35,369 nt of DNA from Psychromonas hadalis ATCC BAA-638. Its GTDB lineage: Bacteria > Pseudomonadota > Gammaproteobacteria > Enterobacterales > Psychromonadaceae. This document shows, in pieces, positions 10,838 to 32,252 of the stretch. The notes under the pieces were generated by a model. That model was given only the letters and a program-made list of their open reading frames with translations. It did no database searches and had not been told where the DNA came from. The DNA is taken from contig NZ_ATUO01000019.1 in NCBI RefSeq assembly GCF_000420245.1, forward strand, positions 1-35,369. The letters run 5' to 3'. The position numbers and the translations under genes are program-made. How positions within the stretch are numbered: position 1 is the stretch's first letter; every line of letters begins with the position of its first letter.

Positions 10838-11029
10838 ATAACCGCTTTGGGCTAAGCCATTTATGTTTAGTTCGAGAAAGAAAAGCACAGTTTAATCGTT
10901 TAAATACTTCGTACATCCTGTACTACGCCCTACGGGCCATCTTACAGATGTTCAAATTATTTCCAGACTAATTTGTGAGCATTTTCCGACGCTGAAATAA
11001 GCTTAAATGGCAACGGCCTAAGTTGTTAT
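10838..11029. mobile_element. MITE-like element candidate, family 3 (about 192 bp), abutting the lysA stop
   Basis: The ends ATAACCGCTTTGGGCTAAGC... (10838 onward) and ...GGCCTAAGTTGTTAT (to 11029) are imperfect inverted repeats, 19 matches over 26 bp, with a shared CCATTTA inner block. Internal palindromic bits include GTACATCCTGTAC and CCCTACGGGCC. No coding capacity is seen. The lysA TAA stop (11026-11028, minus) falls within the right terminal repeat. Only one copy is in the window, so the boundaries and mobile nature are inferred from structure and from the similar placement of the other families. Confidence 0.5.
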
Positions 11030-12288
11030 GGTAAAACATGCTCACCAGCCCACAATGTGCGGTGCTCTTCACGTTCTCGAACGATAAATGCTTTTTCACC
11101 ATCAACCATCACTTCAGCGGGGCGACAACGAGAGTTATAGTTAGAGCCCATCGTTGCACCATAAGCACCCGCACTGCGTATTGCCAAGTAATCACCTTCG
11201 GCAAGGGTTAATTGACGATCTTTCCCTAAGAAATCACCTGTTTCGCAGATAGGCCCAACAATATCGTAGTTACGTAGAGGGCGGGTTTCTGACTCAATAA
11301 GGCTTTTATTAAGTGGAATGATATTCTGCCATGCGCTATATAAAGCGGGGCGAATCAAATCATTCATGGCGGCATCAACAATGGCAAAACTTTTATGGTC
11401 GTTGATTTTCAAGAATTCAACTTTAGTGACTAAAATACCTGCATTTGCCATGATCGCACGACCCGGTTCAAATAGCAGTTTTAGTTTACGGTCGCCCATT
11501 TTTGCGATAATCGCATCCATATACTCTTTAGGCTCTGGTGGTGTTTCATTTTTATAAGGCACACCTAAACCACCACCGAGATCAAGATGGCTAATGGTAA
11601 TACCTTTCTCTTCAAGTTGATCGATTAACAGTAACAATTTATCCAATGCTTCAATAAAGGGAGCAACTTCAGTTATTTGAGATCCAATATGACAATCGAC
11701 CCCTTTCACTTCAAGAAACTCAAGGTCGTTGGCTAAATGGTAAACGGTTAATGCCTGTTCGATATCAATACCAAACTTATTCTCTTTTAATCCAGTCGAA
11801 ATATAAGGGTGTGTACCTGCATCAATATTAGGATTAATACGAATCGACACTGAGGCTTTTAAATTTAACCCTTGTGCTACGCCATTAATGCGGTAAAGCT
11901 CTGAAATAGATTCTACATTGAAGCAATAGATGCCAGCTTGTAGTGCAGTTGAAATTTCAACTTCCGTTTTCCCAACGCCTGAAAAAACTACTTTTTTAGG
12001 ATCGCCCCCTGCTTGAATAACACGTAATAGCTCACCAACAGAAACGATATCAAAACCTGAACCTAAACGTGCCATCAGGTTTAAAACGCCTAAGTTAGAG
12101 TTGGCTTTTACGGCATAACAGATAAGATGAGGGTGATCGCCCGCCGCTTGATCAAAGCCTTTCCAATGGCGCTCAATGGTGGCACGAGAATAGATATAAG
12201 CAGGTGTTCCTGACTTTGCTATAACGTCTTCGACAGGCAGTCCTTCAACAAAAAGACGACCATCATTCTGATAATTAAAGTGATCCAA
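11026..12288 (-). CDS. lysA: Diaminopimelate decarboxylase
   Basis: LysA decarboxylates meso-diaminopimelate to L-lysine using PLP (fold type III, alanine racemase-like barrel). K61 in CYAVKANSN is the PLP lysine. H200 (GVDCHIGSQ), the glycine loop GGG (238-240), EPGRAI (about 274-279) and C348 (PICETGDFLG) are the expected cofactor and substrate contacts. The length of 420 is normal. The start has AAGGA about 6 nt upstream. It sits 48 nt after lptM. The ending HVLP followed by TAA falls at the terminal repeat of the element at 10838-11029, so the native C-terminus may have been altered by a residue or two. Confidence 0.98.
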   Translation of the reverse strand: MDHFNYQNDGRLFVEGLPVEDVIAKSGTPAYIYSRATIERHWKGFDQAAGDHPHLICYAVKANSNLGVLNLMARLGSGFDIVSVGELLRVIQAGGDPKKVVFSGVGKTEVEISTALQAGIYCFNVESISELYRINGVAQGLNLKASVSIRINPNIDAGTHPYISTGLKENKFGIDIEQALTVYHLANDLEFLEVKGVDCHIGSQITEVAPFIEALDKLLLLIDQLEEKGITISHLDLGGGLGVPYKNETPPEPKEYMDAIIAKMGDRKLKLLFEPGRAIMANAGILVTKVEFLKINDHKSFAIVDAAMNDLIRPALYSAWQNIIPLNKSLIESETRPLRNYDIVGPICETGDFLGKDRQLTLAEGDYLAIRSAGAYGATMGSNYNSRCRPAEVMVDGEKAFIVREREEHRTLWAGEHVLP

Positions 12289-12336
12289 TTTTAAATCCTT
12301 TTTATTTGCTTGTTGGTAAAAGAGAGTGCGCGTTAA

Positions 12337-12510
12337 TTAGGACGCTTTTTCTGTTTTTTGTTCAATACTTGCTTCTTTTTCTGGTGCTGTTTTTTGTTTT
12401 TCTATTGGTTGTGGTTCTTGAGGCACACGATAAAGAGGCCCTTTCATGCCACAGCCAATTAATAAGCTTGAAAAAAGCACGGGTACTACTAATAAATTGA
12501 GCTTTTTCAT
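12337..12510 (-). CDS. lptM: LPS-assembly lipoprotein LptM (YifL)
   Basis: This 57-residue lipoprotein begins MKKLNLLVVPVLFSSLLIGC. The signal peptide ends in the lipobox LIGC, with lipidated Cys20. The conserved GMKGPLYRVP motif follows directly, then a Gln/Glu/Lys-rich tail. LptM helps the LptD-LptE outer-membrane translocon mature by promoting correct disulfide pairing in LptD. The start has AGGA at a good distance on the minus strand. Its position divergent from cyaY and ahead of the dap genes is the conserved yifL locus. Confidence 0.92.
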   Translation of the reverse strand: MKKLNLLVVPVLFSSLLIGCGMKGPLYRVPQEPQPIEKQKTAPEKEASIEQKTEKAS

Positions 12511-12582
12511 CGCTTATCCTAGTTAAATTATTTGAGCGCTCTATAATCGCACTTCATTGTTCAAAAGCAAAGGGGATCGATC

Positions 12583-12897
12583 GTGAATGACAGTCAATTT
12601 CAACAATTAGCGGATGAGTTGTATCAAACCATTGAAGATTGTATTGAGGAATCAGGTGCAGATGTGGATTATGATCAAAATGGTGGTTTGTTAACCCTAG
12701 AATTTGAAAACCGTAGTAAGCTTATTATTAATCGTCAGCAACCCTTACATCAAGTTTGGCTGGCAACACAGGAAAATGGCCATCATTATGATTACATTGA
12801 TGGTAAGTGGATTGATGATCGTAGTGGAAATGAATTTTTAGCGTTTTTATCAGCCGCTATTTTTAAGCAGTCAGAAGAGCAAGTAGCGTTTAATTAA
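12583..12897 (+). CDS. cyaY: Iron-sulfur cluster assembly protein CyaY (bacterial frataxin)
   Basis: CyaY binds iron and modulates cysteine desulfurase IscS during Fe-S assembly. The 104-residue protein has the acidic first helix (FQQLADELYQTIEDCIEESG, with further Asp at DVDYD), the strand motif GGLLTLEF, and the frataxin signature of a Gln/Trp-containing sheet (HQVWLAT ... HYDYIDGKWID). Translation starts at GTG (12583) with AGGGG about 8 nt upstream; no ATG fits the conserved N-terminus. It is divergent from lptM. A short hairpin (GTAGCGTT at 12883-12890 with AACGCTAC at 12896-12903) spans its stop codon but has no U tract. Confidence 0.95.
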   Translation: MNDSQFQQLADELYQTIEDCIEESGADVDYDQNGGLLTLEFENRSKLIINRQQPLHQVWLATQENGHHYDYIDGKWIDDRSGNEFLAFLSAAIFKQSEEQVAFN

Positions 12898-12914
12898 CGC
12901 TACCTTACAGTGAC

Positions 12915-13094
12915 TTAAAGGTAACGTTTAGCAATAATATAATAAAGGCTAAATAGCGTCACATAAAAAGCAATAATCCAGTTGTGATAGTTGCTATAAC
13001 CTTGAATGATAAGATCAAATAGAGTGAATAATGCTAAAGTTAAAAATGTACTTTGTATCGCTTCGCTAACGATAATTTTATTATAAGTCATCAT
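12915..13094 (-). CDS. Small predicted two-helix membrane protein, unrecognised
   Basis: A 59-residue reading frame starts MMTYNKIIVSEAIQSTFLTL and ends YYIIAKRYL. Two hydrophobic segments (about 15-30 and 39-54) are separated by a short polar loop (QGYSNYHNW), and the C-terminus is basic, which suggests a hairpin-type inner-membrane protein. A clear ribosome site (AGGAGA, 6-9 nt before the paired ATG codons) supports translation. It is convergent with cyaY, 17 nt apart. I do not recognise the family. Confidence 0.62.
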   Translation of the reverse strand: MMTYNKIIVSEAIQSTFLTLALFTLFDLIIQGYSNYHNWIIAFYVTLFSLYYIIAKRYL

Positions 13095-13369
13095 TTACTT
13101 TCTCCTATTACATCGAATTGATGCACTAAAGGTAGATCAGTTTTGCAAGAAAAAAAGGCTTTTATAGGGATAAAAGAGGTTAATTTTTAGTGCTTAAAAC
13201 AATTGCTTGTTTTCAAAAGTCTTTTTATTTTGAATTAAAAAGGGAACGTTATTTTTGCGATAATTGTTCAAGTTTTACAATTAATAACTGGTAATATTAT
13301 CATCACTTAATAAACAAACACTTATCAAAAATAAAGCTAATTGTTCAGGTGAGTGCAAAAGGAAGTAAC

Positions 13370-13603
13370 ATGTTTAAACTATTTTTTGTTTACCCGCTGA
13401 TTTTACTTATCGTTGCTTGGTTAGCAAGTGACGTTGAAATTGGTGCGTCAGTCTACTCATTTGAAGATAATCACATCTCTATTGAGTTTCCTAAAGCGGT
13501 ACTTCGCTCAGAAGAAAACCCCGAACCTTGGTATAGCTTCTATTGGAATGCAGAGTCTGCACGTGGTGGGCTACAAACGATTAATGATGCAGTGGTTAAT
13601 TAG
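13370..13603 (+). CDS. Small membrane-anchored protein upstream of coaD, unrecognised
   Basis: The 77-residue product begins MFKLFFVYPLILLIVAWLAS, a signal-anchor or uncleaved signal segment (about 2-20), followed by a short polar domain rich in aromatic and acidic residues (NPEPWYSFYWNAES). I chose the ATG at 13370 over an upstream one at 13349 because AGGAAG lies 6-8 nt before it. It ends 11 nt before coaD, so the two are probably co-transcribed. No function can be assigned. The 275 bp upstream (13095-13369) are AT-rich, hold a 7-bp hairpin near 13196-13213, and show no other gene. Confidence 0.6.
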   Translation: MFKLFFVYPLILLIVAWLASDVEIGASVYSFEDNHISIEFPKAVLRSEENPEPWYSFYWNAESARGGLQTINDAVVN

Positions 13604-13614
13604 AGGTAACGTAA

Positions 13615-14100
13615 GTGAAAACTGTTATTTTTCCTGGTTCATTTGATCCTGTCACCAATGGCCATCTTGATCTACTAAAACGTGCTTCATACCTCGCAGA
13701 GCGAGTCGTAGTGGCCGTTGCAAAAAATGACACTAAGAAAACACTGTTTACTTTGCAAGAACGTTGCCAATTATTGAAACAGTCTACTGAGCAGATAGAG
13801 GGGATTGAGATCATCTCTTTTTCTGGTTTGTTAGTGACGTTTGCTGCCGAGCAACAAGCGCAAGCGTTACTACGTGGCATTCGAGGTGCAAGTGATGCAG
13901 ATTATGAAATACAGCTTTCACAGGTAAATAAAGCACTGAATCCACAACTAGAAACTATATTGTTAGCGGCTAATGGGGCAACCGGGTTTATCTCTTCGAC
14001 TGTTGTTAAAGAGGTATTTAAACACGGTGGCGATATCAGCCAGTTAGCGCCTCTCTGTGTTAAAAATGCGTTAATCACAAAACAGAATAAAAATAACTAA
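13615..14100 (+). CDS. coaD: Phosphopantetheine adenylyltransferase
   Basis: CoaD transfers AMP from ATP to 4'-phosphopantetheine, the penultimate and rate-controlling step of coenzyme A synthesis. The nucleotidyltransferase motif GSFDPVTNGHLD carries T14-N-G-H17. RGIRGASDADYE and the SSTVVKE segment are also characteristic. The length of 161 is normal (E. coli 159). The start is GTG at 13615 with GAGG upstream; this gives MKTVIFPGSF, matching the family. CoaBC, which makes the substrate for this step, is encoded 5 kb downstream. Confidence 0.97.
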   Translation: MKTVIFPGSFDPVTNGHLDLLKRASYLAERVVVAVAKNDTKKTLFTLQERCQLLKQSTEQIEGIEIISFSGLLVTFAAEQQAQALLRGIRGASDADYEIQLSQVNKALNPQLETILLAANGATGFISSTVVKEVFKHGGDISQLAPLCVKNALITKQNKNN

Positions 14101-14119
14101 GCCTACAAGCAGAACTATT

Positions 14120-14152
14120 TTCTCTTTCTATAATTAACAAATAGAGAGAGGA
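14120..14152 (+). promoter_or_regulatory. Stem-loop covering the ribosome site of the channel gene
   Basis: Bases 14120-14131 (TTCTCTTTCTAT) can pair with 14141-14152 (ATAGAGAGAGGA) as a 12-bp stem with two G-U pairs and a 9-nt loop. The right arm contains the purine-rich ribosome site (GAGAGGAG) of the gene starting at 14159. No U tract follows, so it is more likely a translation-control hairpin than a terminator. Function is inferred. Confidence 0.5.
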
Positions 14153-14158
14153 GCCGTT

Positions 14159-15139
14159 ATGCCAAAAAATGAACATTGTAGTTATATCAATCACCTTGGT
14201 GAACGTTGTCATACACATTCGCATTCTTCGCAGTATTGTTATTGGCATGATCCTGAAATCACTAAATCCAGCCCCGAAACAGCAAAAAATCTTGAAAAGC
14301 ATGCGCGCGATGGTGGCATGTTGCATGGTATCTTTTTAAAAAATGCAAACTTAGAAAATTTAAACTTGGTAAGAAGAGATTCAAAGCTAGGGTTTGACCT
14401 TACAGGCGCTGATCTTTATCGCGCTAATTTACGTGGCGCTCATCTTTTTAACGTTATTTTTATTCGCGCCAGTTTAATGAAAGCAGATCTTTCTAATGCC
14501 AATATACATTGTGCGCATTTAGAAGAGTGCAACTTGCTAGGTGTTAAATTAACCGATACCAAAATAGAGCACATTAAAATTGGTAACAAGTTGATCCAAG
14601 AAAGTAGCGCGAAAGTGTTGGAGGAGCAAGGGAATAGCGCACAGGCAAAAGATTTTTATGAACAAGCAGAAGAGATCTACCGTAACTTACGAAAAACCAG
14701 TGAGCATCAAGGTTTGTTTACGTTATCTGGGCCTTATCTACGTAAAGAGTTAACCATGCGTCGCTTTCAAGAGAAACGTTGTTCGGTTAATCGACTCTCT
14801 TCAAAAGTGGTGGATCTATTTTGTGGTTATGGAGAAGACCCATTGCGGGTAATTCTGTTTTCATGGGCATTAATTGTTTTCAGTTCTTTTTTCTATTACA
14901 TTTTTGGCTTGCGGTTTGCGGGAGAGTTTCAAGTTTTTTCTTTCGATCAAACTTTAGAACGCAATGTAATCTTCTTTTTTGAATGCCTCTATTATAGCGT
15001 GGTGACATTTACCACACTAGGTTATGGGGATTTTATACCTGTTGGTTTGTCGCGGGTGGTTGCCGCTTTAGAGGCGTTTACAGGTAGCTTTACCATCGCA
15101 CTGTTTGTGGTGGTCTTTGTGAAGAAAATGACGCGTTGA
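14159..15139 (+). CDS. Pentapeptide-repeat protein fused to a two-TM K+-channel-type pore
   Basis: The 326-residue protein has four parts. An N-terminal Cys/His cluster (C7, C17, H18, H20, H22, C27, H30, spaced C-x9-C-x9-C-x2-H) could bind zinc. A pentapeptide-repeat stretch (about 54-140) shows the A(D/N)LxxA pattern, for example LTGADLYRANLRGAHL and MKADLSNANI. A helical linker (about 150-210; AKDFYEQAEEIYRNLRK ... KELTMRRFQEKR) follows. The C-terminal ion-channel module has a first TM (about 226-247), a pore loop with the selectivity filter TTLGYGDF (285-292), and a second TM (about 298-322). It is probably an inner-membrane potassium channel gated or scaffolded by the cytoplasmic part. 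It is inserted between coaD and mutM, which are neighbours in E. coli. Confidence 0.88.
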   Translation: MPKNEHCSYINHLGERCHTHSHSSQYCYWHDPEITKSSPETAKNLEKHARDGGMLHGIFLKNANLENLNLVRRDSKLGFDLTGADLYRANLRGAHLFNVIFIRASLMKADLSNANIHCAHLEECNLLGVKLTDTKIEHIKIGNKLIQESSAKVLEEQGNSAQAKDFYEQAEEIYRNLRKTSEHQGLFTLSGPYLRKELTMRRFQEKRCSVNRLSSKVVDLFCGYGEDPLRVILFSWALIVFSSFFYYIFGLRFAGEFQVFSFDQTLERNVIFFFECLYYSVVTFTTLGYGDFIPVGLSRVVAALEAFTGSFTIALFVVVFVKKMTR

Positions 15140-15143
15140 TAAA

Positions 15144-15200
15144 AAGTCGGGTCAGATCAAACTTAAATCACCTACTGTTAAGTTTGATCTGACCCGACTT
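15144..15200. repeat. Perfect 23-bp inverted repeat between convergent genes (REP-like)
   Basis: The left arm 15144-15166 (AAGTCGGGTCAGATCAAACT plus TAA) and the right arm 15178-15200 are exact reverse complements around an 11-nt loop. The repeat fills the gap between the channel gene stop (15139) and the mutM stop (15203). The GGGTCAGATC...CTTAA core resembles repetitive palindromes associated with REP-type tyrosine transposases. It would also act as a stem at the 3' end of both transcripts, although neither side has a real U tract. Confidence 0.8.
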
Positions 15201-15202
15201 AA

Positions 15203-16015
15203 TTATGTTTGGCACTTCGGACAATAGACACTATTGCGAGAAGCTAATTTAAGCGATTTTAAGGCTGTTTGGCATTTTGGGCAGTTGTGCCCTGTTTTTC
15301 CATAGATGTGCAGTGTCTGTTGGAAATAGCCAGGTTTACCATCACTCCCCACAAAGTCTTTGAGTGTTGTACCCCCCTGTTTTATCGCTTCGGCTAAAAT
15401 CTCTTTGATGGCATCGGTTAATCGTTGATAACGCGTTAGTGAAATATTACCCGCTGCGCGAGTGGGGTTAATACCTGCGATAAATAGCGCCTCTGTTGCG
15501 TAGATGTTACCTACTCCAGTGACCACCTTTTGATCCATGATAAATTGTTTAACTGACAGTTTTCGTTTGCCTGCTAATTCAAATAAATGCTCTCCCGTGA
15601 ACGCTTCACTTAATGGCTCTGGGCCTAAATGGCTGAGTAGTTTTGAATCTTGTGGAGAGAGGCCTAACCATAAAATAGAACCAAAGCGCCGTGGGTCGGT
15701 ATAGCGTAATAAGCATTGCTGAAAAATAAGATCGGCATGATCATGTTTTTCAGGTGCACTGCCTAGTGGACAAATTCGTAAACTGCCGGACATGCCTAGA
15801 TGGATCAGCAGTGTACCCGACTCAAAATTAAGCAGTAAATATTTTGCACGACGATCGACAGAGAGTAATTCTTTATGTTGTAGGTGATCCAGTAAATCAC
15901 TTGGAATCTTCCAGCGTAGTTGTGGTTGTCGAATAATAACATCGGTGATCGTTGAGCCAACAATATGTGGAATAATGCCACGGCGACTGGTTTCTACTTC
16001 GGGCAGTTCTGGCAT
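15203..16015 (-). CDS. mutM: Formamidopyrimidine-DNA glycosylase (Fpg)
   Basis: MutM excises 8-oxoguanine and formamidopyrimidines from DNA and nicks the abasic site. The N-terminus MPELPEVETSRRG gives the catalytic Pro2 and Glu3. K58 (DRRAKYL) is the conserved lysine. The helix-two-turns-helix region contains MDQKVVTGVGNIYATEALF. The C-terminal zinc finger has C245, C248, C265 and C268 (NCPKCQ ... YCPKCQT). The length of 270 is normal. GGAG precedes the ATG. In E. coli mutM follows rpmG in one unit; here two unrecognised genes and a repeat element lie between them. Confidence 0.98.
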   Translation of the reverse strand: MPELPEVETSRRGIIPHIVGSTITDVIIRQPQLRWKIPSDLLDHLQHKELLSVDRRAKYLLLNFESGTLLIHLGMSGSLRICPLGSAPEKHDHADLIFQQCLLRYTDPRRFGSILWLGLSPQDSKLLSHLGPEPLSEAFTGEHLFELAGKRKLSVKQFIMDQKVVTGVGNIYATEALFIAGINPTRAAGNISLTRYQRLTDAIKEILAEAIKQGGTTLKDFVGSDGKPGYFQQTLHIYGKTGHNCPKCQTALKSLKLASRNSVYCPKCQT

Positions 16016-16078
16016 GTTTTTTCTCCATTAGTCTAATATGATGAGTATATCAGTGTACTTTTTTTAAAGGGAAAAGCG

Positions 16079-16585
16079 ATGCTAAGAATTCCCACTTGGT
16101 TAGTTGTTTTGGTTGGTCTGCTGTTTAATATATCCGCGGCCTTAATTACTCACTTTATAATTGAGGGAAAAACCAATCAACTGAATAGTTTATCGATGCA
16201 AATGAAAAACAATGATAAAGAGATAAGTTTGTTGTGGGTGCAGGTAGAGGGAATTGAACGTAAGCGAGAAACGCTCTATCTGTTAAAAAATCAAGGTGAA
16301 CTAGATGAAGTGATTGCATTGCAGTTTAGTCGTTTGTTGGCGTTGCATTTGCAAGAGAATATCCCACTTGCAGATATTCAGTTGGTTGATAAAAAAATAG
16401 ATAGCTACCAAGCTAATATCCGTAATGAGATAGATAACAAATTCTTTTTAAACTTAGAATTGGTTGAGTTAGAGATGCTTCTGCAAAGTGAGGTTGCTCG
16501 TTTGCGTAGCTGGTCACTTTTTTTACAGATGATTGGGCTGTCGCTTATTTTAGCGCGAGATTTAAGCCGACAACGTGCAGTTTAG
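16079..16585 (+). CDS. Predicted membrane-anchored coiled-coil protein, unrecognised
   Basis: The 168-residue product starts with a membrane segment (about 6-28; TWLVVLVGLLFNISAALITHF). A charged, heptad-like helical region follows (about 30-140) with many Leu/Ile and Glu/Lys residues, and a second hydrophobic stretch lies near the C-terminus (about 146-160; WSLFLQMIGLSLILA). The end is basic (RDLSRQRAV). This suggests a coiled coil on one side of the inner membrane with both ends anchored. AAAGGG precedes the ATG. It is divergent from mutM, with 63 bp between. I do not recognise the family. Confidence 0.7.
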   Translation: MLRIPTWLVVLVGLLFNISAALITHFIIEGKTNQLNSLSMQMKNNDKEISLLWVQVEGIERKRETLYLLKNQGELDEVIALQFSRLLALHLQENIPLADIQLVDKKIDSYQANIRNEIDNKFFLNLELVELEMLLQSEVARLRSWSLFLQMIGLSLILARDLSRQRAV

Positions 16586-16589
16586 TATT

Positions 16590-16804
16590 ATACCAATTCG
16601 CCTAAGTAACAGATCGTTTTTACTGCTTTAAATGACTAATACCTGCGTGGCATTCAATCGCAATAGCCAGCTGCTCTATTTGACTTCGTCAAACAGTACG
16701 CAGTACAAAACAAATGACCGTTTTGCTTATTACTCAATCATGCGCCTTGACCTTAGTAATTTGTCCTACGTAAAACCTGGTCATTATATTAAACGGAATG
16801 GTAT
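16590..16804. mobile_element. MITE-like element, family 2 copy 1 (215 bp)
   Basis: It is bounded by ATACCAATTCGCCTAA (left) and TTAAACGGAATGGTAT (right), imperfect inverted repeats with 12 of 16 matches. A second copy lies at 30412-30624, highly similar along its whole length, with shared blocks such as TTTGACTTCGTCAAACAG and CAAATGACCGTTTTGCTTAT. The block TTTGACTTCGTCAAA is itself a perfect hairpin. Reading frames across it are not conserved as proteins. Its right end meets the TAA stop of the minus-strand gene at 16804. Confidence 0.85.
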
Positions 16805-17256
16805 TAGCGACCTAAAAAGAGGGGGAGTTGAGCGCTACTTAAAAATAGCGCCATTTTTTCATCAGTTTGTAATAGGTAGTCTTCACCCTGTTGAATTAAC
16901 TTAACGATAATCGGTTGCGCCTCGTTAGCGGTATAAACTTGCATGATAAAGGGGTCTTTAGGTTCAAGGATCGCGCCTTGAGTTTGTAAAGGCAGGGTTT
17001 GCCAGTTTTGTACCAATAGCGAGAGTTGATGTGCTGATAAACCAATACCGGGTTCACTTATCCAATGACGGCCAGATCGTTTAATAGAAAAATCAGGGGT
17101 TTTAATTTCCACAATCATCACTTCACTACTAATGAGTGTGCGCTGGTGGACTTTGGGTTGGAGCAGTAGTTTATGACTAAAGTTAAACAGGAAAACAACG
17201 ATTAATACACTAAAGATAAGGACGTTATTCCAACCTCTTGCTGATAAACGTATCAT
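16804..17256 (-). CDS. Predicted single-pass membrane protein with periplasmic domain, unrecognised
   Basis: The product is 150 residues from the chosen start. A short basic N-terminus (MIRLSARGWN) leads into one membrane helix (about 11-28; VLIFSVLIVVFLFNFSHKLL). A mixed sheet/helix domain of about 120 residues follows, probably outside the cytoplasm. I chose the ATG at 17256 over the one at 17262 because AAGGAA is 6-8 nt from the former and only 2 nt from the latter. It lies downstream of rpmB-rpmG, past their terminator, on the same strand. The TAA stop sits at the boundary of the MITE-like element, so the native C-terminus may differ in relatives. Confidence 0.68.
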   Translation of the reverse strand: MIRLSARGWNNVLIFSVLIVVFLFNFSHKLLLQPKVHQRTLISSEVMIVEIKTPDFSIKRSGRHWISEPGIGLSAHQLSLLVQNWQTLPLQTQGAILEPKDPFIMQVYTANEAQPIIVKLIQQGEDYLLQTDEKMALFLSSAQLPLFLGR

Positions 17257-17274
17257 ATTCATTTCCTTTAGACA

Positions 17275-17303
17275 TAAAAAAACCCAGTATAAACTGGGTT
17301 TTT
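17275..17303 (-). terminator. Rho-independent terminator of rpmB-rpmG
   Basis: A perfect 10-bp stem (AAAACCCAGT at 17279-17288 with ACTGGGTTTT at 17293-17302, 4-nt loop) lies just after rpmG on the minus strand and is followed there by a T run. It also overlaps the leader of the downstream minus-strand gene. Confidence 0.88.
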
Positions 17304-17320
17304 ATCAGATAAAATCAAAA

Positions 17321-17476
17321 TTACTTGATTTTGCCTTCTTTGTACATAACGTGCTTACGTACAACAGGATCAAATTTCTTGATCTCAAATTTTCCAGGCA
17401 TCGTCTTTTTATTTTTATCAGTAGTATAAAAATGACCAGTACCAGCACTTGAATTTAAACGGATTTTTTCGCGCAT
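17321..17476 (-). CDS. rpmG: 50S ribosomal protein L33
   Basis: The 51-residue protein starts [19 protein letters not shown] and ends [14 protein letters not shown], clearly L33. It lacks the four zinc-binding cysteines of some L33 forms, so it is the zinc-independent type. It is a few residues shorter at the N-terminus than E. coli L33 (which has MAKGIREKIKL). The ATG is supported by AAGGAG about 7 nt upstream. The rpmB stop is 11 nt away, so rpmB and rpmG form one operon. Confidence 0.96.
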
Positions 17477-17487
17477 TTTACAACTCC

Positions 17488-17724
17488 TTAAACTTTAATG
17501 CCATTAGCACGGATATCAGCAAGAACTGTATCAATACCTTTTTTGTCGATGATACGCATACCTTTAGTCGTTAGGCGTAATTTAACAAAACGGTTCTCAC
17601 TCTCAACCCAAAAACGGTGTGTTTGTAGGTTAGGTAAGAAACGACGTCGTGTGCGGTTCTTTGCGTGTGATACATTGTTACCAGTAGTCGGACGCTTACC
17701 TGTAACTTGACATACTCTAGACAT
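17488..17724 (-). CDS. rpmB: 50S ribosomal protein L28
   Basis: The 78-residue basic protein starts [23 protein letters not shown], the L28 signature, and continues [20 protein letters not shown]. The length equals E. coli L28. A ribosome site (TTGGAGA) precedes the ATG. It is the first gene of rpmB-rpmG, behind a strong sigma-70-type promoter with a GC-rich start region. Confidence 0.98.
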
Positions 17725-17838: not shown

Positions 17839-17858
17839 CAATTCTATGAATTTAACCC

Positions 17859-18536
17859 TTAAATCCAGCCTTTTTCGGCAAAAGAGGTACATTTATGGTG
17901 TCCAATGATGAAATGATCTAAAACGCGTACATCAATTAATTGCATCGTTTTGACGATTTTTTCAGTGATTTTTTTGTCACAAATACTGGCGGTAGGATCG
18001 CCACTTGGATGGTTATGGACCAATATAATAGCGGCTGCATTTTCATGTAATACTTTCTGGGCAATAACTCTTGGATGGATGGTTGCACTGTCAATTGAGC
18101 CAAAAAAGAATTCATGAAAACAGATGATTTGATGTTGTGTGTCTAATAGCAAGGCAGCAAAAACTTCGTAAGGGTAGGCGTGCATTTTAGCGATTAAAAA
18201 ATCTTTAGTCTGCTGTGCGCTGGTGAGAGCAAATCCTTTTTGCAGAGGTTCTTGCAGATAACGACGTGACATCTCTAAAACAGCCTGTAATTGTACATAT
18301 TTAGCCTGTCCGAGCCCTTTTTTAGTACAAAATTCACTTTCAGAAGCTGCAAATAATCGGTGTAACGAGCCAAATTCACTCAGTAGTAAACGCGACAGTG
18401 TTACCACATCCATGCCTTGGCAGCCCGTGCGTAAAAATATAGCTAATAGCTCTGCATCTGAAAGGGCGTTACTGCCTTTTGATAGTAACTTTTCTCGTGG
18501 TCGCTCTTGTTCTGGCCAATCTTTTAAAGTTGTCAT
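17859..18536 (-). CDS. radC: RadC family JAMM-domain protein
   Basis: RadC proteins carry a JAMM/MPN+ metalloprotease-like domain; despite the name, a role in recombination repair is not established. An N-terminal helix-hairpin-helix-like segment (about 20-95; ALSDAELLAIFLRTGC, TKKGLGQAKYVQL) precedes the JAMM domain. The metal motif is H174-x-H176-x7-S184-x2-D187 in LVHNHPSGDPTASICD. The length of 225 matches E. coli YicR. The start codon lies 2 nt from a MITE-like element, so the 5' untranslated region, including the weak ribosome site (AACGGGT), comes from the element. Conserved order rpmGB-radC-coaBC is kept. Confidence 0.95.
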   Translation of the reverse strand: MTTLKDWPEQERPREKLLSKGSNALSDAELLAIFLRTGCQGMDVVTLSRLLLSEFGSLHRLFAASESEFCTKKGLGQAKYVQLQAVLEMSRRYLQEPLQKGFALTSAQQTKDFLIAKMHAYPYEVFAALLLDTQHQIICFHEFFFGSIDSATIHPRVIAQKVLHENAAAIILVHNHPSGDPTASICDKKITEKIVKTMQLIDVRVLDHFIIGHHKCTSFAEKGWI

Positions 18537-18538: not shown

Positions 18539-18943
18539 ATACCCGTTATCATTCAAAATGCAAAATTCAGCAAGCCGTGAGGTGAACAGATTCTAGGCAG
18601 AAAGTTGAAGGTCTAACTGGTTCAATCAACGCTTTCTAACGAATTGTTAAATGCTTGTATTTAATCAAAGTCGATAGAGGATTAACGTCTTTTTGTTAAT
18701 CTCTCGAAAGACAGCGAAAATGTTTGCCTCACGATTTGCTAGCTCGCCTCTTGTGCAACCATGGCAATACAGCGTTGCAACATTTACTAAGGACTCGCCA
18801 TTAAAGAATGAAAGTCTTTTATTTCATTCTACCGATAGAGGATTAATGTTTTTTTATTAATCTCTCGTAAGACCATCATGTTGCGCCTTGCTTTGGTGTC
18901 CGAGTTAGCGACTGAATAAAGCATTTTGATTGGTAACGAGTAT
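18539..18943. mobile_element. MITE-like element, family 1 copy B (405 bp), upstream of radC
   Basis: Ends ATACCCGTTATCATTCA and TGATTGGTAACGAGTAT are inverted repeats matching those of the copy at 5679-6023. Shared internal blocks include AAAGAATGAAAGT, CGATAGAGGATTAA and CTAGCTCGCCTCTTGTG. Copy B is about 60 bp longer. The GATAGAGGATTAA ... TTAATCTCTCG hairpin occurs twice in it (about 18671-18712 and 18832-18873) and once in copy A. It fills nearly all of the radC-coaBC divergent gap; only 18944-19030 remains for the coaBC promoter. Confidence 0.85.
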
Positions 18944-25522: not shown

Positions 25523-25527
25523 AGTGA

Positions 25528-25809
25528 TTATTTTTTTATGCTTTCAGATGTTTCTAAAGAAGTTTGGTTTTTATCTAGATCACAGTCTTCAGGTAGTGGT
25601 TGCCCAGTATAAGCATGTAAGAAGGCTTCACACAGTAGCTCGCTATTGGTTGCGTGGCGAAGATTGTTAACTTGGCGACGAGTGCGTTCATCGGTGAGTA
25701 TTTTTAATACTTTGTTGGGAATCGATACCGTTACCTTTTTAACTAATTTACTTTTCTGGCCGTGTTCAGCATAAGGGCTGATATATTCACCGTTCCAATC
25801 TTTAGACAT
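25528..25809 (-). CDS. metJ: Methionine repressor MetJ
   Basis: MetJ is a ribbon-helix-helix repressor that, with S-adenosylmethionine as corepressor, shuts off methionine synthesis genes at met boxes. The N-terminus [15 protein letters not shown], the DNA-contacting strand KKVTVSIP (about 24-31) and helices [39 protein letters not shown] are nearly identical to E. coli MetJ. The protein has 93 residues against about 105. The last dozen or so residues of the enterobacterial form are absent and the tail ([15 protein letters not shown]) is unrelated. No metB is adjacent; metJ lies downstream of cyaA on the same strand with its own operator upstream. Confidence 0.97.
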
Positions 25810-25880
25810 GATGTTCCTTGCTTATTTAACCCATAATATTAGAAAGGACATTTTAGCGGTTGTTGTCAGTGATGGCAAAT

Positions 25881-25896
25881 AGACTTCTAGAAGTCT
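25881..25896. promoter_or_regulatory. MetJ operator (two tandem met boxes) upstream of metJ
   Basis: AGACTTCTAGAAGTCT is a perfect 16-bp palindrome made of two 8-bp units, each matching the met-box consensus AGACGTCT at 7 of 8 positions. Two tandem units are the minimum MetJ operator. Lying 72-87 nt before the metJ start codon, it points to autoregulation, as known for E. coli metJ. Confidence 0.82.
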
Positions 25897-26001
25897 GATG
25901 TTACATGAATGAAATACTCATTTTGTTTGTTTCATTTCATGTTGTTAAGGTTTTGTTGAATTATTTTAATGATTATATGGATTATGCCCTGAGTAATATG
26001 C

Positions 26002-28503
26002 TTAGTGCAAGGCATGCTCTGCACTTTTACAGCTACTTTTAAAACTGGAGAGTTGCAATTGGTCATTTTCGCCTAATTCAATCTCATAAAATTGTGGCAG
26101 ATTAAAGTTTATCTGCTCTTTTAATGTACTACTATCAGGGCTATTAGACGCATAAAAACGGTTTACGTTTTGCACTAAGTCATCTTTACTGCCTGCAAAA
26201 CTTTGGAAACTTTCAACCTCATTTTTTGCATTAGCAATATATACATTAAAGCCGTCTGGGTAGTTTTCAAAAAAGAACTGAATTAATCCTTCACTGATAT
26301 GTGATTCAATCACCTCTGCAGTTTGCTCAAAAAAGGTGTTTTTGAGATTAATTGCACTAGTAGATACCTTCTTCTTGGAGATATGGCTGTAGATATCGAC
26401 GGTACTTTGTAAATGTTGTAGAGAAACGCCTGTGCGTTCAAAATAAAAACCAAATTTTCTGCCACCAGTCCATAGTGTTTGCACTGATCGTTGTGAAATA
26501 GAATCTAAACGTAGTTGGATATACTCTTCGAGTTTATTTTTAAAAGTATCACTTATCTGCTGTTGAAAGTGTTGGCTATAACAAAAAAGGTCTATTTGTT
26601 CAGGTGGGCGCGCATCTTGATGCATCTTACCCAAAATAGTATTGAGTGCATCTACCACTGCATAGTTATTATCAAAGTGTAAAGTACGTACTTCATTCCA
26701 AGAGTTACGGTAGATAAGGTCGATACTGCCCACTAAACATTCATTGTCTTGCCCATAAGATAAAATATTGCCATTTTCAATGTCAGCAGATTCGTGGGCA
26801 TCTTTCCAGTGACGAGTGGGATCTTTTTCTACGTTTAAAAAAATAGCAAGATGTTTGATTTCACAAGGTTGACTAAGGGCTTGGTTGCTGGCTTTGGGCA
26901 CATAAACTGGAAACACTGAGTACAAGTCTTTTATAAACAGGTTGAGTTTTTTATCAACCAGATCAGATCCTTGATTATAAAGGTGTAGTTTTGTTTCCTC
27001 TTCATATAAGCCGTTCATATGGCACCAAGCAATAATCTTAGAGAGATATTTGGCATACATCAGTGTTGGTGTGTTAACTAAGGTGTGTGCATCCATTGAG
27101 CAGTTATAAAGATACCAACCTGCGCTATTTTTTCGCCCTTCTGGTACTTGGATGAAGCTTAAGTCTGGCTCAGAAAGATCGGGAGAAATATTAGGGTTAA
27201 TAAGATCCACTTTACCGGGCAGTGTTTCGTGTGCAGCGTAGAGTTTGCGTGATAATATGCCGATATCTTCCGCACTGATCGATTCTCCGATATTATTATC
27301 ACGTGCAAAGGAGAGTAGTTTACGATAACTGGTCATCAACGTTTCGAGCAGAATATCTTTTGCTTTGGTAACTTCGTTTACTTTCCAATTTTTACGGTTA
27401 TCTAAGTCGGCAATTTGCTCTTCAACCCAGCCCCACTGATTAACAAATTTATTTAAAATGGTACGTCGCCACGCGCTATTGTCGTTATAACAAACTTTGG
27501 AAAGGTTCTCTTCTGTTTTTAGATAGAAGCAACCTCGTACCACTTGTAAGCGTTTTAGATCGTTGATCTCAATAAGATAAGCGGTTACTTTTTCTAACAT
27601 TAAGCAGTAAGGGTCAAGTCGTTCATCGTAATATTCTTGCGTTTGAAAACGTCTTTTGTAGGTGATGGCGACTAATTCTGTTTTAGGATATTCCCACGAG
27701 TAAGCTTCCATCAAAATAGTTTTTAATACCGCTTTATAGGGGGTGTCGATGCCTTTATAGAGTTGCCAAAGTGTGGCGCCAAAATACTCTTCTGCAGGAA
27801 TGCGGTGAAAGCCCCCTAAGTCTAACCAATCATCTTTATTAATTGTGTCATTATCATAAAGTGCTTGTACATATTGGTTATAATTTTCTTCGTGCTCTAT
27901 CGGAATAACGCGCCATAAAATAGGTTTTCCTGCAATGCGTAGCGCGGTACGATAAAACTCATCTAATAAAACCATATGTTGTGAAGAGCCACAGGAGTCT
28001 TTGCTCATGCCTGCATTATTATCAATGCGAAATTTATTGTCTGGGATGAGAAAAAAGTTAAGCTCTACGCCTAAGCTTTCTGCCCAGTGAGTAATTAACC
28101 ATGATTTTTCTTCTAATAGTTTAACGCGTTGGCTGTTGAGTTGGTTGGGGTAGCAGATCCAGATATCAAAATCACTTTCCGAGCATTGTCCTATTGAAGA
28201 GGTGCTGCCCATCGCATACAAGCCAATAATATCGTTTTGTGCTGATGTTGTTCTTGGCAGATCGGTATGTAGGAAATAATTGATGAGCTGGTGGTGTGTT
28301 TCATTAACTTCAAATTGGCAGATGCCCGTTGGTACATCAGCGTTAATATAACCAGGCAGTGTTGGCAGATTGAAATGAAACAGAAGCGGAAATGATTGAA
28401 ACACATTCAACTCATCTTCTCTCATCAATCCTTGTGCGGACTGAATACGTAAGCGATTAAATTTATTCGCTTTGTCACGTAATCTGATTATTTCACAGCT
28501 CAA
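26002..28503 (-). CDS. cyaA: Class I adenylate cyclase
   Basis: CyaA makes cAMP for the CRP regulon and is controlled by the glucose phosphotransferase system. From the chosen start the product has 833 residues (E. coli 848). The N-terminal catalytic domain has GSTSSIGQ (99-106) followed by S-x-S-D-x-D-I-W with D111 and D113, the nucleotidyltransferase metal site. The long C-terminal regulatory half starts near 520. The frame is open upstream to 28569, but the TTG at 28503 aligns with the E. coli start: both have 17 residues before the LR(V/I) motif. E. coli cyaA is known to use TTG. CAGG lies about 7 nt upstream. A CRP-like site lies at 28571. Confidence 0.95.
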   Translation of the reverse strand: MSCEIIRLRDKANKFNRLRIQSAQGLMREDELNVFQSFPLLFHFNLPTLPGYINADVPTGICQFEVNETHHQLINYFLHTDLPRTTSAQNDIIGLYAMGSTSSIGQCSESDFDIWICYPNQLNSQRVKLLEEKSWLITHWAESLGVELNFFLIPDNKFRIDNNAGMSKDSCGSSQHMVLLDEFYRTALRIAGKPILWRVIPIEHEENYNQYVQALYDNDTINKDDWLDLGGFHRIPAEEYFGATLWQLYKGIDTPYKAVLKTILMEAYSWEYPKTELVAITYKRRFQTQEYYDERLDPYCLMLEKVTAYLIEINDLKRLQVVRGCFYLKTEENLSKVCYNDNSAWRRTILNKFVNQWGWVEEQIADLDNRKNWKVNEVTKAKDILLETLMTSYRKLLSFARDNNIGESISAEDIGILSRKLYAAHETLPGKVDLINPNISPDLSEPDLSFIQVPEGRKNSAGWYLYNCSMDAHTLVNTPTLMYAKYLSKIIAWCHMNGLYEEETKLHLYNQGSDLVDKKLNLFIKDLYSVFPVYVPKASNQALSQPCEIKHLAIFLNVEKDPTRHWKDAHESADIENGNILSYGQDNECLVGSIDLIYRNSWNEVRTLHFDNNYAVVDALNTILGKMHQDARPPEQIDLFCYSQHFQQQISDTFKNKLEEYIQLRLDSISQRSVQTLWTGGRKFGFYFERTGVSLQHLQSTVDIYSHISKKKVSTSAINLKNTFFEQTAEVIESHISEGLIQFFFENYPDGFNVYIANAKNEVESFQSFAGSKDDLVQNVNRFYASNSPDSSTLKEQINFNLPQFYEIELGENDQLQLSSFKSSCKSAEHALH

Positions 28504-28570
28504 TGGGGAACCTGCTCTTTGGTTAGGATAATACAACGTTGGAAATGTTTTGATAAAAACGTGGTACAAA

Positions 28571-28592
28571 AAGTGTGAGCATCATAACATTA
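28571..28592. promoter_or_regulatory. Probable CRP-cAMP binding site upstream of cyaA
   Basis: AAGTGTGAGCATCATAACAT plus TA fits the 22-bp consensus AAATGTGA-N6-TCACATTT, with the left TGTGA perfect and the right half TAACA (4 of 5). It is centred about 78 nt upstream of the TTG start. In E. coli, CRP represses cyaA; the same feedback is plausible here. Confidence 0.55.
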
Positions 28593-28646
28593 TTTTGCAG
28601 GTCTGGGAAATATCCCCGATTTTACTCAGGGATTAAAATTGCAACT

Positions 28647-29624
28647 TCAAGCCTCTTCAATTGTGTAGGGAAGTGGTGCGTAATATAGTGTTGAGCCCTC
28701 TATTTCTTTGACTTGATACACATTTTCTGGGCTGCAATCTCTCGGTAATACGGCCAGTACTTCAATATGACCATCTCCATATTGGCAACCTGAAATAACC
28801 ATGCCGATACGCTTCCAGTTATTGCTCACTAACATTTGAATATTATCACCGGCTTTAGGGGCGACAGTTGCGCGACCCGTTAAAATAAACAGCGCACGTT
28901 TATTCGCGCCACGATATTTTGCGCGGGCAACAGTTTCTTGTCCGATATAACAACCCTTGGTAAAGCTAATGCCGTTTAATGCTTGTAGGTTTAACATCTG
29001 TGGAATAAATGAGGCACAAGTTTTCTCCTCAATAAAACCGATACCAGAAGCAATGTTCATGGCGTTCCATAAGCTATCGTCATAAATCTCAGCGCGATTT
29101 TTTAGATCGTCTAAGAGTTCTTCTGCTACCGAATTTTTCATGATCGCTAAATAACGCAGTGAGGGGTAAGGTTGTTTGATGATCACTGTACCACTCTCTA
29201 ATAAACGGCTTTGATCATGTGTGGCGGCGATATCTACTTTTTCTGCAATATACTGTGCTGATTTACAGCCTGCTAATCCAAAAACTCTGTAATCAGGATC
29301 AATGCTAATTTCTACTTTAGAGAAAGCAGCATATTTTTTCAGTTCAGGTAGTTGGCGTGTCGTTATGGAACTTGGCTGTGTTAATAATACCCTGTCTTCT
29401 AAGATGATAACGCGCAATACGCTAAAAACTTTACCTTGTGGATTACACTGAGCAGCTAAGGTTTGTTGCCCGGGTTGTAAACTGCTTAAATCACAGGTTA
29501 ACTGCCCTTGTAAAAAACTGATACGATCATCACCTTTTACGCAGATAAGATCCCAGTTATCAAGTGGACATAAAACTAAATCGGGTAGTTGGCTGATATT
29601 ATCTAATTCACTCAGTTTGCGCAT
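28647..29624 (-). CDS. ygfZ: tRNA-modifying / folate-binding protein YgfZ
   Basis: YgfZ is a tetrahydrofolate-binding protein of the aminomethyltransferase (GcvT) fold that supports Fe-S enzymes such as MiaB. The signature KGCYIGQE (residues 223-230) with its reactive Cys is present, as are FLQGQLTCDL near the N-terminus and the C-terminal beta-barrel domain. The product is 325 residues from the ATG at 29624, close to E. coli (326). This ATG has ACGAGG about 6 nt upstream and matches family starts; an ATG 13 codons earlier does not. It is divergent from sdhE, the conserved ygfZ/sdhE arrangement of gammaproteobacteria. Confidence 0.95.
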   Translation of the reverse strand: MRKLSELDNISQLPDLVLCPLDNWDLICVKGDDRISFLQGQLTCDLSSLQPGQQTLAAQCNPQGKVFSVLRVIILEDRVLLTQPSSITTRQLPELKKYAAFSKVEISIDPDYRVFGLAGCKSAQYIAEKVDIAATHDQSRLLESGTVIIKQPYPSLRYLAIMKNSVAEELLDDLKNRAEIYDDSLWNAMNIASGIGFIEEKTCASFIPQMLNLQALNGISFTKGCYIGQETVARAKYRGANKRALFILTGRATVAPKAGDNIQMLVSNNWKRIGMVISGCQYGDGHIEVLAVLPRDCSPENVYQVKEIEGSTLYYAPLPYTIEEA

Positions 29625-29747
29625 AATTGCCTCGTTTATATTTTTTACAATGGTATAGCTCACAACCTATTTTGTCAGTAGTTGCCACTAATAAATTGTT
29701 GTTGTTATGATGTTGGTAGATATTTATTATTAAGTAGGAAAATGAAA

Positions 29748-29999
29748 ATGACTGAAGTGGTTAATAAGTCGCGTTTATTATGGGCGTGTCGTCGGGGAAT
29801 GTTGGAATTAGATGTGTTATTTATGCCTTTTGTAAAAGAAGCATTTGATGATTTATCAAATGCAGACCAGTTTACTTTTCAGCGCTTATTGACCTGTGAA
29901 GATCCAGACCTTTTTGCGTGGTTTATGGGACACAAAACCTGCCCTGATGTTGAGTTAACAAAGATTATCGATGTTATCCTCAAGCGCGTTAAAGTATAA
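29748..29999 (+). CDS. sdhE: FAD assembly factor SdhE
   Basis: SdhE (YgfY, DUF339) promotes covalent FAD attachment to succinate dehydrogenase and fumarate reductase flavoproteins. The 83-residue helical protein has the essential RGxxE motif at 16-20 (RRGMLELD) and the F-x-R-L-L ... DPDLFAWFMG segment. I chose the ATG at 29748 because AGGA is 8 nt upstream; the ATG two codons earlier is too close. It overlaps ygfX by 29 nt. The nadB gene downstream encodes another flavoprotein of the same superfamily. Confidence 0.93.
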   Translation: MTEVVNKSRLLWACRRGMLELDVLFMPFVKEAFDDLSNADQFTFQRLLTCEDPDLFAWFMGHKTCPDVELTKIIDVILKRVKV

Positions 30000-30408
30000 A
30001 ATTAGCGTTAAGCGCTCTTATTGTGCAGGTTTTGTTAACTTCCTGCTTTACCTCTCTGTTATTTTAATGTCGTTATTGGTGGTATCACTTAATGCATTGT
30101 CGCTGTTTTTTTACTTAATACTGCTGGCGATTGCATTTGTTGCTGCCAGAAAAGCATTCTTGCAACAAGATGAATTGTTATTGAGTGAATCGGGTGCACT
30201 GGAAAGGGTGCTAGCCAGTAAGGTCTACAGTGGAAAGATTGGAGCGCACTCTTTTTATAATGGTTTTTTTATTTTTTTACAGTTAGACATTGTGGGCTCT
30301 CCTTTTGCCAAGAAAACCAGTAAACAGTTTCTGACTATCTACAAAGATGCCATTACTGAAGAGCAGTATCGTTTAATCGCCCGCCTAATAAATAGCGGGC
30401 GAAGTTAG
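29971..30408 (+). CDS. ygfX: YgfX family membrane protein
   Basis: YgfX (CptA) is a small inner-membrane protein encoded next to sdhE; it has been reported as a toxin-like partner acting on cytoskeletal proteins, but that role is debated. The 145-residue product has two TM segments close together (about 20-40 and 43-62; FVNFLLYLSVILMSLLVVSL, LSLFFYLILLAIAFVAA) and a soluble C-terminal domain with LQLDIVGSPFAKKTSKQFLTIYKDAI. The start lies inside sdhE (29-nt overlap), the same arrangement as in E. coli, which suggests translational coupling. A GC-rich 7-bp stem (30378-30384 with 30395-30401) spans the end of the gene and may help terminate. Confidence 0.88.
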   Translation: MLSSSALKYKISVKRSYCAGFVNFLLYLSVILMSLLVVSLNALSLFFYLILLAIAFVAARKAFLQQDELLLSESGALERVLASKVYSGKIGAHSFYNGFFIFLQLDIVGSPFAKKTSKQFLTIYKDAITEEQYRLIARLINSGRS

Positions 30409-30411
30409 TTT

Positions 30412-30624
30412 ATGTCAATCCGCCTAAGTAACTGCTCGTTTTTACTGGTTTAAATGACTAATACCTGCGTTGCATTCAATCACCATAGTCAGCGGTTCTA
30501 TTTGACTTCGTCAAACAGAACACTGTACAAAACAAATGACCGTTTTGCTTATTACGCATCATGTGCCTGACCTTAGCAATTTATCCTACGTAAAACCTGA
30601 TCATTATATTAAGCGGAATGGTAT
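30412..30624. mobile_element. MITE-like element, family 2 copy 2 (213 bp), meeting the nadB stop
   Basis: This is a close copy of the element at 16590-16804 with conserved blocks CGCCTAAGTAAC, ATGACTAATACCTGCGT, TTTGACTTCGTCAAACAG and CGGAATGGTAT. The left terminal repeat is more decayed (ATGTCAATCCGCC) than in copy 1. It starts 4 nt after the ygfX stop and ends at the nadB stop, so it fills the gap between two convergent genes. Confidence 0.85.
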
Positions 30625-32252
30625 TAATCATTCTGTGGACATAAAATCGTGGGTTTGGGATTATCTATCTGCTCAGGGTAATCTAAGTTGTAATGTAAAC
30701 CTCGACTCTCTTTGCGTGACATTGCGCTACGAATAATCAATTCAGCGACTTGTACTAAATTACGTAACTCTAATAAATTGTTGCCCACTTTGAAGTTACT
30801 GTAATACTCGTTGATCTCCTGTTGTAGCATCTGCACACGACGCAAGGCGCGTTCTAAACGCTTATCGGTGCGTACAATACCCACGTAATCCCACATAAAT
30901 AAGCGTAGTTCATGCCAATTATGCTGAATGACCACCTCTTCATCGGAGTCTTCTACTTGGCTATCATCCCAAGCAGGAATATCAGCAAACTTTCTCTCTT
31001 GATAAAAAGGGATACGGTTAATAATATCTTTTGCGCAAGCGTGTGCATAAACAATACATTCGAGCAGTGAGTTAGAAGCCATGCGGTTTGCACCATGTAA
31101 ACCTGTGTAAGTGACTTCACCAATGGCATATAAACCATCAATGTCCGTTTGTCCGTGATGGTCGATCATCACGCCACCACAAGTATAATGTGCAGCGGGC
31201 ACAATAGGCATTGGCTGGTGGGTGATATCAATCCCTAATGATAAACAACGGCGATAGATAGTGGGGAAGTGTTTAACGATAAATTCTTTAGGTTTATGGC
31301 TGATATCAAGGTACATACAATCAGCGCCTAAACGCTTCATCTCATAATCGATAGCACGTGCCACAATGTCACGCGGAGCAAGTTCTTCGCGTTCATCAAA
31401 GTCAGGCATAAAGCGAGTGCCATCTGGGCGCAGAAGGTGCGCACCTTCGCCACGTAACGCTTCCGTTAATAGAAAGTTTTTAGCGTCAGCATGAAAGAGA
31501 CAAGTGGGGTGAAATTGGTTAAATTCCATATTGGCGATACGGCAACCACTACGCCAAGCCAGCGCAATACCATCCCCACTTGAAACATCTGGGTTACTGG
31601 TATATTGGTATACTTTACTTGCGCCACCTGTTGCAAGGGTTATAAAGTGTGCTTTGATGGTTTCGACGCGTTCTTCATTACGGTTCCAAACATAAGCGCC
31701 CAAAACACGGTTCGCGGGTAAGTTCAGTTTACGGCTAGTGATCAAATCAATGGCATTAAAACCTTCCATCAAGGTGATGTTTTTATGTTTTTTAACCGCA
31801 TTAAGCAACGTATTTTCAATTTCTCGGCCTGTTGCATCTGCCGCGTGTAAAATACGGCGATGTGAATGTCCGCCTTCACGCGTCAGGTGAAATTGGGTAT
31901 TGCCCTCTTTATCGACTTCGGTATCAAAATTAACACCAGTATCAATTAACCATTGCATGCTCTCTTTGGCATTACTCACCGTAAAGCGCACCGCCTCTTC
32001 ATCGCATAATCCTGCACCTGCAATTAAGGTATCATCAACGTGCGAGTCTACACTGTCCGATTCAGAAAATACGGCAGCTACGCCTCCTTGAGCATAAAAC
32101 GTAGAGCCCTCGGAAAGTTTGCCCTTACTTAATACATTTACTTTTGCGTGAGGGGCTAATTTCAATGCAAGTGAAAGGCCTGATGCCCCTGCCCCAATAA
32201 TTAATATGTCACAGTTGTATTGTTGTGCAGTTATTGATTTACTTTCTGTCAT
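30624..32252 (-). CDS. nadB: L-aspartate oxidase
   Basis: NadB is the FAD enzyme that oxidises L-aspartate to iminoaspartate, the first step of de novo NAD synthesis (partner NadA, not in the window). The N-terminal dinucleotide motif is GAGASG (20-25). Other hallmarks are [40 protein letters not shown] and the [12 protein letters not shown] substrate region. A C-terminal helical domain follows. From the ATG at 32252 it has 542 residues (E. coli 540); an ATG 16 codons upstream is not needed. It is divergent from rpoE, the usual arrangement. The TAA stop is formed at the boundary of the MITE-like element. Confidence 0.97.

Follow-up and report, generated by a model that had tools for sequence, protein, structure and literature searches.

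Short repeat elements at gene 3' ends in Psychromonas: a miniature family with a 3-bp TNA target duplication found on stop codons

The DNA analysed here, contig NZ_ATUO01000019.1 of Psychromonas hadalis ATCC BAA-638 (positions 1 to 35,369; hereafter the window, meaning this whole stretch of 35,369 nt), is contig C19 of a draft genome of 3.98 Mb in 351 contigs, and it carries short repeat elements of three families, A, B and C, that lie at or close to the ends of minus-strand genes. The three families are real repeats, for which blast recovered at least 56, 66 and 66 matches from the draft genome of the window (at least 66 for family B). These counts include fragments, 40 candidates were scored per family, and the element sets of all families are lower bounds and less than a full census. 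Family B is very probably a family of miniature inverted-repeat transposable elements (MITEs), moved by an IS630-type transposase that duplicates the triplet TNA and landing on native stop codons, mainly beside gene 3' ends.

Two family-B elements on stop codons of the window

Both family-B elements of the window are flanked by TTA triplets, the right one of which coincides with the stop codon of a minus-strand gene. Genes were called with our own script, which places 74-75% of bases in genes and is not a standard annotation, and the comparison genomes, coded G001-G023, are members of the same genus. The features are as follows (TSD, target site duplication).

16588..16806, plus strand: family-B miniature element; left TTA 16588-16590, body TACC...GGTA 16591-16803, right TTA 16804-16806
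16804..17262, minus strand: gene of 152 aa, here the 16804 gene; native TAA stop 16804-16806 is the right TSD copy of the element
16079..16585, plus strand: convergent neighbour gene; last base of its TAG stop at 16585, separated by 2 nt from the left TSD of that element
30410..30626, plus strand: family-B miniature element; left TTA 30410-30412, right TTA 30624-30626, left end decayed (TATGTC for TATACC)
30624..32300, minus strand: nadB-like gene with FAD_binding_2 and Succ_DH_flav_C domains; native TAA stop 30624-30626 is the right TSD copy

The product of the 16804 gene gave no Pfam match, and NadB of the window is 90% identical to NadB of Psychromonas ossibalaenae, the nearest record found. 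Read on the minus strand, the two sites share the string TAATACCATTCCG, with the stops at 16804-16806 and 30624-30626, just as an earlier sequence-only reading of this DNA had reported. That reading offered two explanations for the identity, namely that the elements end in TAA and bring a stop codon with them, or that insertion favours stop codons containing TA. Relatives bear on the choice. In all 20 other genomes compared, residue 152 is the last of the 16804 gene product. In 12 of 22 other genomes, which include G005, G010 and G011 as the nearest relatives, nadB could be aligned to residue 542 with a stop directly behind it, and in the remaining 10 it ends no more than 3 residues from residue 542. 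No family-B element was present at either stop in the 50 nt read from these 22 and 20 genomes. Both genes thus end at this codon or close to it in relatives that lack the element. The stops are native: they were not brought by family B, which landed on them and doubled them. The common string is explained by duplication of TNA on native stops.

Target duplication and a related insertion sequence

The ends of family B read TACC...GGTA. A profile search of stretches of 10 genomes returned at least 170 matches, and its extension to 11 genomes at least 226 entries, fragments and seven copies of an insertion sequence (IS) included. Flanks were readable in 71 of the 170 matches, and with only TACC and GGTA as anchors, identical 3-bp flanks occurred in 52 of the 71, as against 23.2 in shuffles. 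Duplications of 2 bp (2/71) and 4 bp (1/71) both fail. In a larger set of two-ended elements, for which TNA was built into the search pattern, identical triplets flank 83 of 102 (TTA 40, TAA 34, TCA 7, TGA 2). The target duplication of family B is 3 bp, TNA. Whatever its middle base, a TNA triplet is TAA or TGA when read on one of the two strands, and therefore an insertion into a stop codon duplicates the stop.

A candidate autonomous partner came from a pattern search of eight genomes, in which inward-facing pairs of family-B-type ends about 1.1 kb apart were found in G016. The 1.1-kb IS at one such site (L411) contains two overlapping open reading frames (ORFs), one with HTH_33, HTH_23 and HTH_29 domains and the other with DDE_3 (PF13592, PF13384, PF13551 and PF13358, the last at 1.5e-26). 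This is the combination of helix-turn-helix and DDE_3 domains expected of the IS630/Tc1-mariner group, and by its domains the transposase is classed as IS630 type. Among the seven G016 copies, four are split in this way, the two overlapping frames having 160 and 208 codons; a further copy has a single open frame of 341 codons, and another has a shortened first frame. TTA stands on both sides in five of the seven, and equal TNA flanks were found in six of nine related IS copies of other genomes in which both ends are readable. Between the 25-base arms of the miniature element and the ends of the IS, 20-21 positions agree, a level reached in none of 100000 shuffles. A transposase 61% identical is encoded in the genome of the window itself, on contig C88, where the right end reads GGTA followed by TTA and the left part is lost at the contig edge. 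Family B thus has the features by which MITEs are recognized: it is short, has inverted ends and a target duplication, and shares its ends with an IS.

An empty site gives the duplication directly: G023 reads AAATAC TTA CTAGC where G016 has TTA-IS-TTA. Because the empty site shows TTA alone, a TA duplication within a wider TNATATNA target is ruled out, and the 2-bp TA duplication of IS630/Tc1-mariner elements is not what the family-B partner makes, since TTA is doubled there. The site lies 3' of what we take to be a pilT/pilU-like gene, and this same TTA is occupied by different TACC-ended elements in G008 (L436) and G016 (L411) and is empty in G023 (L437).

A TNA-type duplication of 3 bp is characteristic of the IS1031 group of IS5 and of PIF/Harbinger, and the duplication pointed at first to IS5/IS1031. 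Family B shares this feature with those groups, but its transposase is instead a DDE_3 enzyme of IS630 type, and an assignment to IS5/IS1031 was ruled out on that ground.

Closer likenesses can be drawn with two published systems. RUP of Streptococcus pneumoniae is a short intergenic repeat with ends like those of IS630-Spn1, proposed to be moved in trans and targeting TA (PMC2229807). Family B is likewise a short intergenic repeat with IS630-like ends, and differs from RUP in its 3-bp TNA duplication, by which a stop codon can be restored. The target of ISY100 is TA, which it duplicates, and characterized elements of the IS630 family likewise duplicate TA (PMC2170065). The family-B IS resembles ISY100 and IS630 in its HTH and DDE domains and inverted ends, and differs in using TNA rather than TA. 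Since characterized IS630 elements duplicate TA, the family-B lineage departs from them in a defining feature. In the open-access literature, which is not all that is in print, no report was found of an IS630-type element with a TNA duplication; nor, in open-access sources, was one found of miniature inverted-repeat elements in Psychromonas or of stop codons restored by insertion. The kind of system is known; new are an IS630-type lineage that duplicates 3 bp and the position that family A takes up. A lineage of this type with a duplication other than TA bears on how fixed the target choice of the IS630 family is.

The mechanism suggested by these observations would run as follows. An IS630-type transposase acting on a 3-bp TNA target would mobilize family B, and as TNA is TAA or TGA on one strand, a stop codon would be a possible target. 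After insertion at a stop, each side of the element would carry a complete stop codon, and the upstream protein would stay unchanged. Copies are found mainly beside gene 3' ends, so that some coincide with stops and have the string TAATACCATTCCG in common. The distribution would be shaped by selection against hits in promoters and genes, and the restoration of the stop by the 3-bp duplication gives a concrete molecular reason why small mobile repeats at gene ends can be harmless.

Families A and C at lysA, uvrD and radC

The elements at lysA and uvrD are of other kinds. The one at lysA is a separate element, with IS66-like ends, found at stops in a fixed orientation, and that at uvrD a third.

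10838..11029, minus strand: family-A element, decayed copy with IS66-like ends; profile match from 10820; terminus ATAAC supplies the lysA stop TAA at 11026-11028
11026..12288, minus strand: lysA-like gene, 420 aa, with Orn_Arg_deC_N and Orn_DAP_Arg_deC domains; TAA stop 11026-11028
5679..6023, minus strand: family-C foldback element, apparently inserted directly ahead of the native stop of uvrD and displacing it
5985..8186, minus strand: uvrD; stop TAG 5985-5987 inside the family-C element (edge 6023), 11 residues past the usual end
18539..18943, minus strand: second family-C copy; edge 2 nt upstream of the radC start codon (18534-18536)

The full family-A element runs GTAACTACTCAG...CTGAGTAGTTAC, with a short form of 171-201 bp, and most copies extend alike beyond the query. 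IS66 elements have GTAA ends (GTAAGCG) and 8-bp duplications (PMC11946415), and family A shares with them the GTAA ends and the 8-bp duplications, while its terminal bases, about 12 on each side, are GTAACTACTCAG in place of the GTAAGCG start and the 20-30 bp of IS66. Among 23 two-ended copies, the 8-bp duplication matches at all 8 bases in eight and at 7 of 8 in six, each taken as the best of small shifts at either end without a shuffle control, and two of the six 7/8 copies probably represent a single site found at two contig ends. By its ends and duplications, the two features on which the likeness rests, family A appears IS66-like. A terminator-like hairpin was seen by eye inside the element. 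Integron attC sites and plain terminators were considered as alternatives and set aside, as the 8-bp duplications and 12-bp inverted ends suit a mobile element better. One family-B element lies within a family-A element (G000, C16:32789-32950), an arrangement that gives the order of events. For the decayed copy at lysA, no target duplication was found. The lysA gene ends at residue 420 in 20 of 23 genomes, that of the window included, and its stop is TAG in the nearest relatives G005, G010 and G011.

Family A has a marked position relative to stops. In one draft genome, 21 genes read into the element from its GTAAC side, and the stop falls between -4 and 7 nt in 16 of them (-4 in four cases, -1 in three, 2 in two, 6 in four, and 3, 5 and 7 in one each), the other five lying at 26, 42, 83, 175 and 468. 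The expected count is 1.2-4.7 (P 2e-16 to 3e-7), and on the far side 3 of 11 stops fall within the same limits. The four elements at -4 provide the TAA themselves, and two of those four copies, that at lysA included, begin with A or T and not with G; at -1 the G of the element end completes a TAG. Part or all of the stop is thereby supplied in seven copies, and nine more lie 2-7 nt past an intact stop.

At uvrD the element has changed the protein. Among the 22 listed relatives, UvrD always terminates two residues beyond ...LE or ...LK, whereas in the window it continues as ...RLEVIPVTNQDTLFSH*, with eleven extra residues, PVTNQDTLFSH, that come from the family-C element. An insertion of family C just before the native ATA TAA fits this arrangement. 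ISAba125 downstream of hns, an insertion at the 3' end that alters the protein and extends it by a few residues (PMC6382973), is like family C at uvrD in effect only, the element and the host being different. At the second copy, radC would have to use family-C sequence for ribosome binding or expression. No target duplication of family C was recognized by eye. Facing stops of family C lie within -4 to 7 in 6 of 21 cases, distances being taken from blast ends in a single genome, and this is significant under the per-base null only. The earlier claim that four elements end at gene stops therefore holds for both family-B sites and for lysA and fails for uvrD, where the stop at 5985-5987 lies inside the element and the native stop is displaced.

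Placement of family B and the question of stop preference

Family B shows a clear bias in the gaps it occupies. For 113 elements whose two neighbouring genes are no more than 400 nt away, the gap is convergent in 31 cases, divergent in 6 and tandem in 76, against a background of 41, 56 and 213 gaps, respectively. Convergent gaps are over-represented and divergent ones under-represented (P 1.4e-5 for the contrast of the two), as the description of gene 3' edges as a safe harbour would have it, and selection against promoter hits is the simplest reading of this bias.

Whether stops are preferred within these gaps is a separate question, which the sequence-only reading had wanted judged against random placement; the family-A count departs from it, and the outcome for families B and C depends on the null. 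Both at-stop insertions that are probably shared between genomes (see below) were kept in the stop-hit tests. In an enlarged set, 15 of 125 facing gene ends are exactly at the stop as against 6.6 expected within 300 nt (P 0.001), and, within 30 nt, 15 of 36 against 8.7 (P 0.007). All of the stops hit are TAA (15 of 96 facing genes), with none of 20 TAG and none of 9 TGA, and TAG is not a TNA triplet. The same arm is used in 12 of the 15 at-stop copies as against 53 of 110 elsewhere (Fisher 0.027), and 23 stops lie within -4 to 7 where the per-base null gives 7.

A number of results weigh against parts of this picture. In the strict test, confined to 46 elements with both ends and both neighbours, 3 are at a stop against 2.3-2.6 expected (P 0.42-0.51), and in the facing-gene-end test the 11 found at a stop against 4.7-6.9 expected give P 0.005-0.07, the upper value of which is unfavourable. 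An equal-gap null, drawn from 156 gaps of G000 only, leaves no excess within -4 to 7 (23 against 28). The at-stop copies are partly dependent, as G000 (contig C78) and G011 share gene-end context and site, and G002 has the at-stop insertion of G006; both cases are probably shared by descent. As to the duplication, a single clean empty site was read, and flanks are unequal in two of the seven G016 IS copies (TAA/TTA and TTA/TAA) and in three of the nine related copies of other genomes. G022 is rich in family B and yet has no transposase match at E 1e-20, so that family B may be stranded there. Finally, that none of the 226 elements is spanned by a called ORF is uninformative, because the element carries stops and splits any ORF it hits, and this absence was dropped as evidence. 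In G022, a complete genome, the stretches read hold at least 70 profile matches of family-B type.

Three other explanations have to be set beside the native-stop account. One of them, that the element brings the stop, having inserted in the 3' part of a longer gene with an end that reads TAA by chance, is very unlikely. TNA does precede the ends in nearly every listed family-B copy, and family A in part behaves in this manner, through its own TAA in the four copies at -4 and its G in the three at -1, but in element-free relatives the last residue of the 16804 gene product is unchanged (20/20) and that of NadB is the same or no more than 3 residues off (22/22), and a randomly cut gene would stop inside the family-B element, which is seen at 3 of 98 facing ends, all of them weak short ORFs. 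The constancy of the lysA end at residue 420 speaks against it as well. Stop-bringing is thus retained in part for family A and is abandoned for family B at its two sites in the window and for uvrD. Nearly an even chance must be given to target sequence as the whole explanation, with TNA insertion occurring across intergenic DNA and the examples of the window representing the chance share of stops. The strict set and the equal-gap null favour it, as does the abundance of TNA in A+T-rich gaps, whereas the 15 of 125 at distance 0, the repeated use of one arm and the per-base null argue the other way. The second earlier proposal, that insertion favours stops containing TA, comes close for family B in that the target is TNA, and does not describe uvrD. 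Any preference beyond TNA itself is weak, roughly twofold and unproven.

Active targeting of the ends of translation or transcription in one orientation, strongest in family A, is doubtful. The 16 of 21 stops on the GTAAC side against 3 of 11 on the far side speak for it, together with the recurrence of distance 6 in four copies. The sample, however, comes from one draft genome, the gene calls are our own and the copies are old. Empty gaps at family A are frequently short (6 of 20 measure 19-45 nt), and this by itself makes small distances likelier; start codons too lie 13-55 nt from the GTAAC side in 13 of 16 cases; short gaps may contribute to the one-sided closeness of family A to stops. 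Why one end of an IS66-like repeat should lie at stops in 16 of 21 cases is the question that family A poses. A wider proposal, that stops are a true target class in the genus, with an IS630-like lineage that moved from TA to TNA and so duplicates stops and an IS66-like GTAAC end that sits on or behind stops and can complete TAA or TAG, is put forward tentatively and is somewhat unlikely. If it were true, element ends would be shaped to be silent at gene ends, and many genes would gain a mobile 3' hairpin. For annotators, the native-stop account of family B and the family-A stops carry the caution that gene 3' ends overlap repeat ends.

The suggestion that the elements give transcripts a 3' stem-loop stands as a prediction from folding, made for all three families. 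A short family-B copy is predicted to fold over its whole length, with z-scores of -5.9 and -3.8 on the two strands, and the copies of the window give -2.8 and -3.1, family A -2.9 and family C -6.8; inverted ends alone could give such whole-length folding. Elsewhere in the window, an Rfam scan at gathering scores returned no family other than 5S rRNA, the gene for which lies at the contig start (7-122, RF00001). A perfect 23-bp inverted repeat at 15144-15200, between a pentapeptide/ion-channel gene and a mutM-like gene, is probably a terminator between convergent genes.

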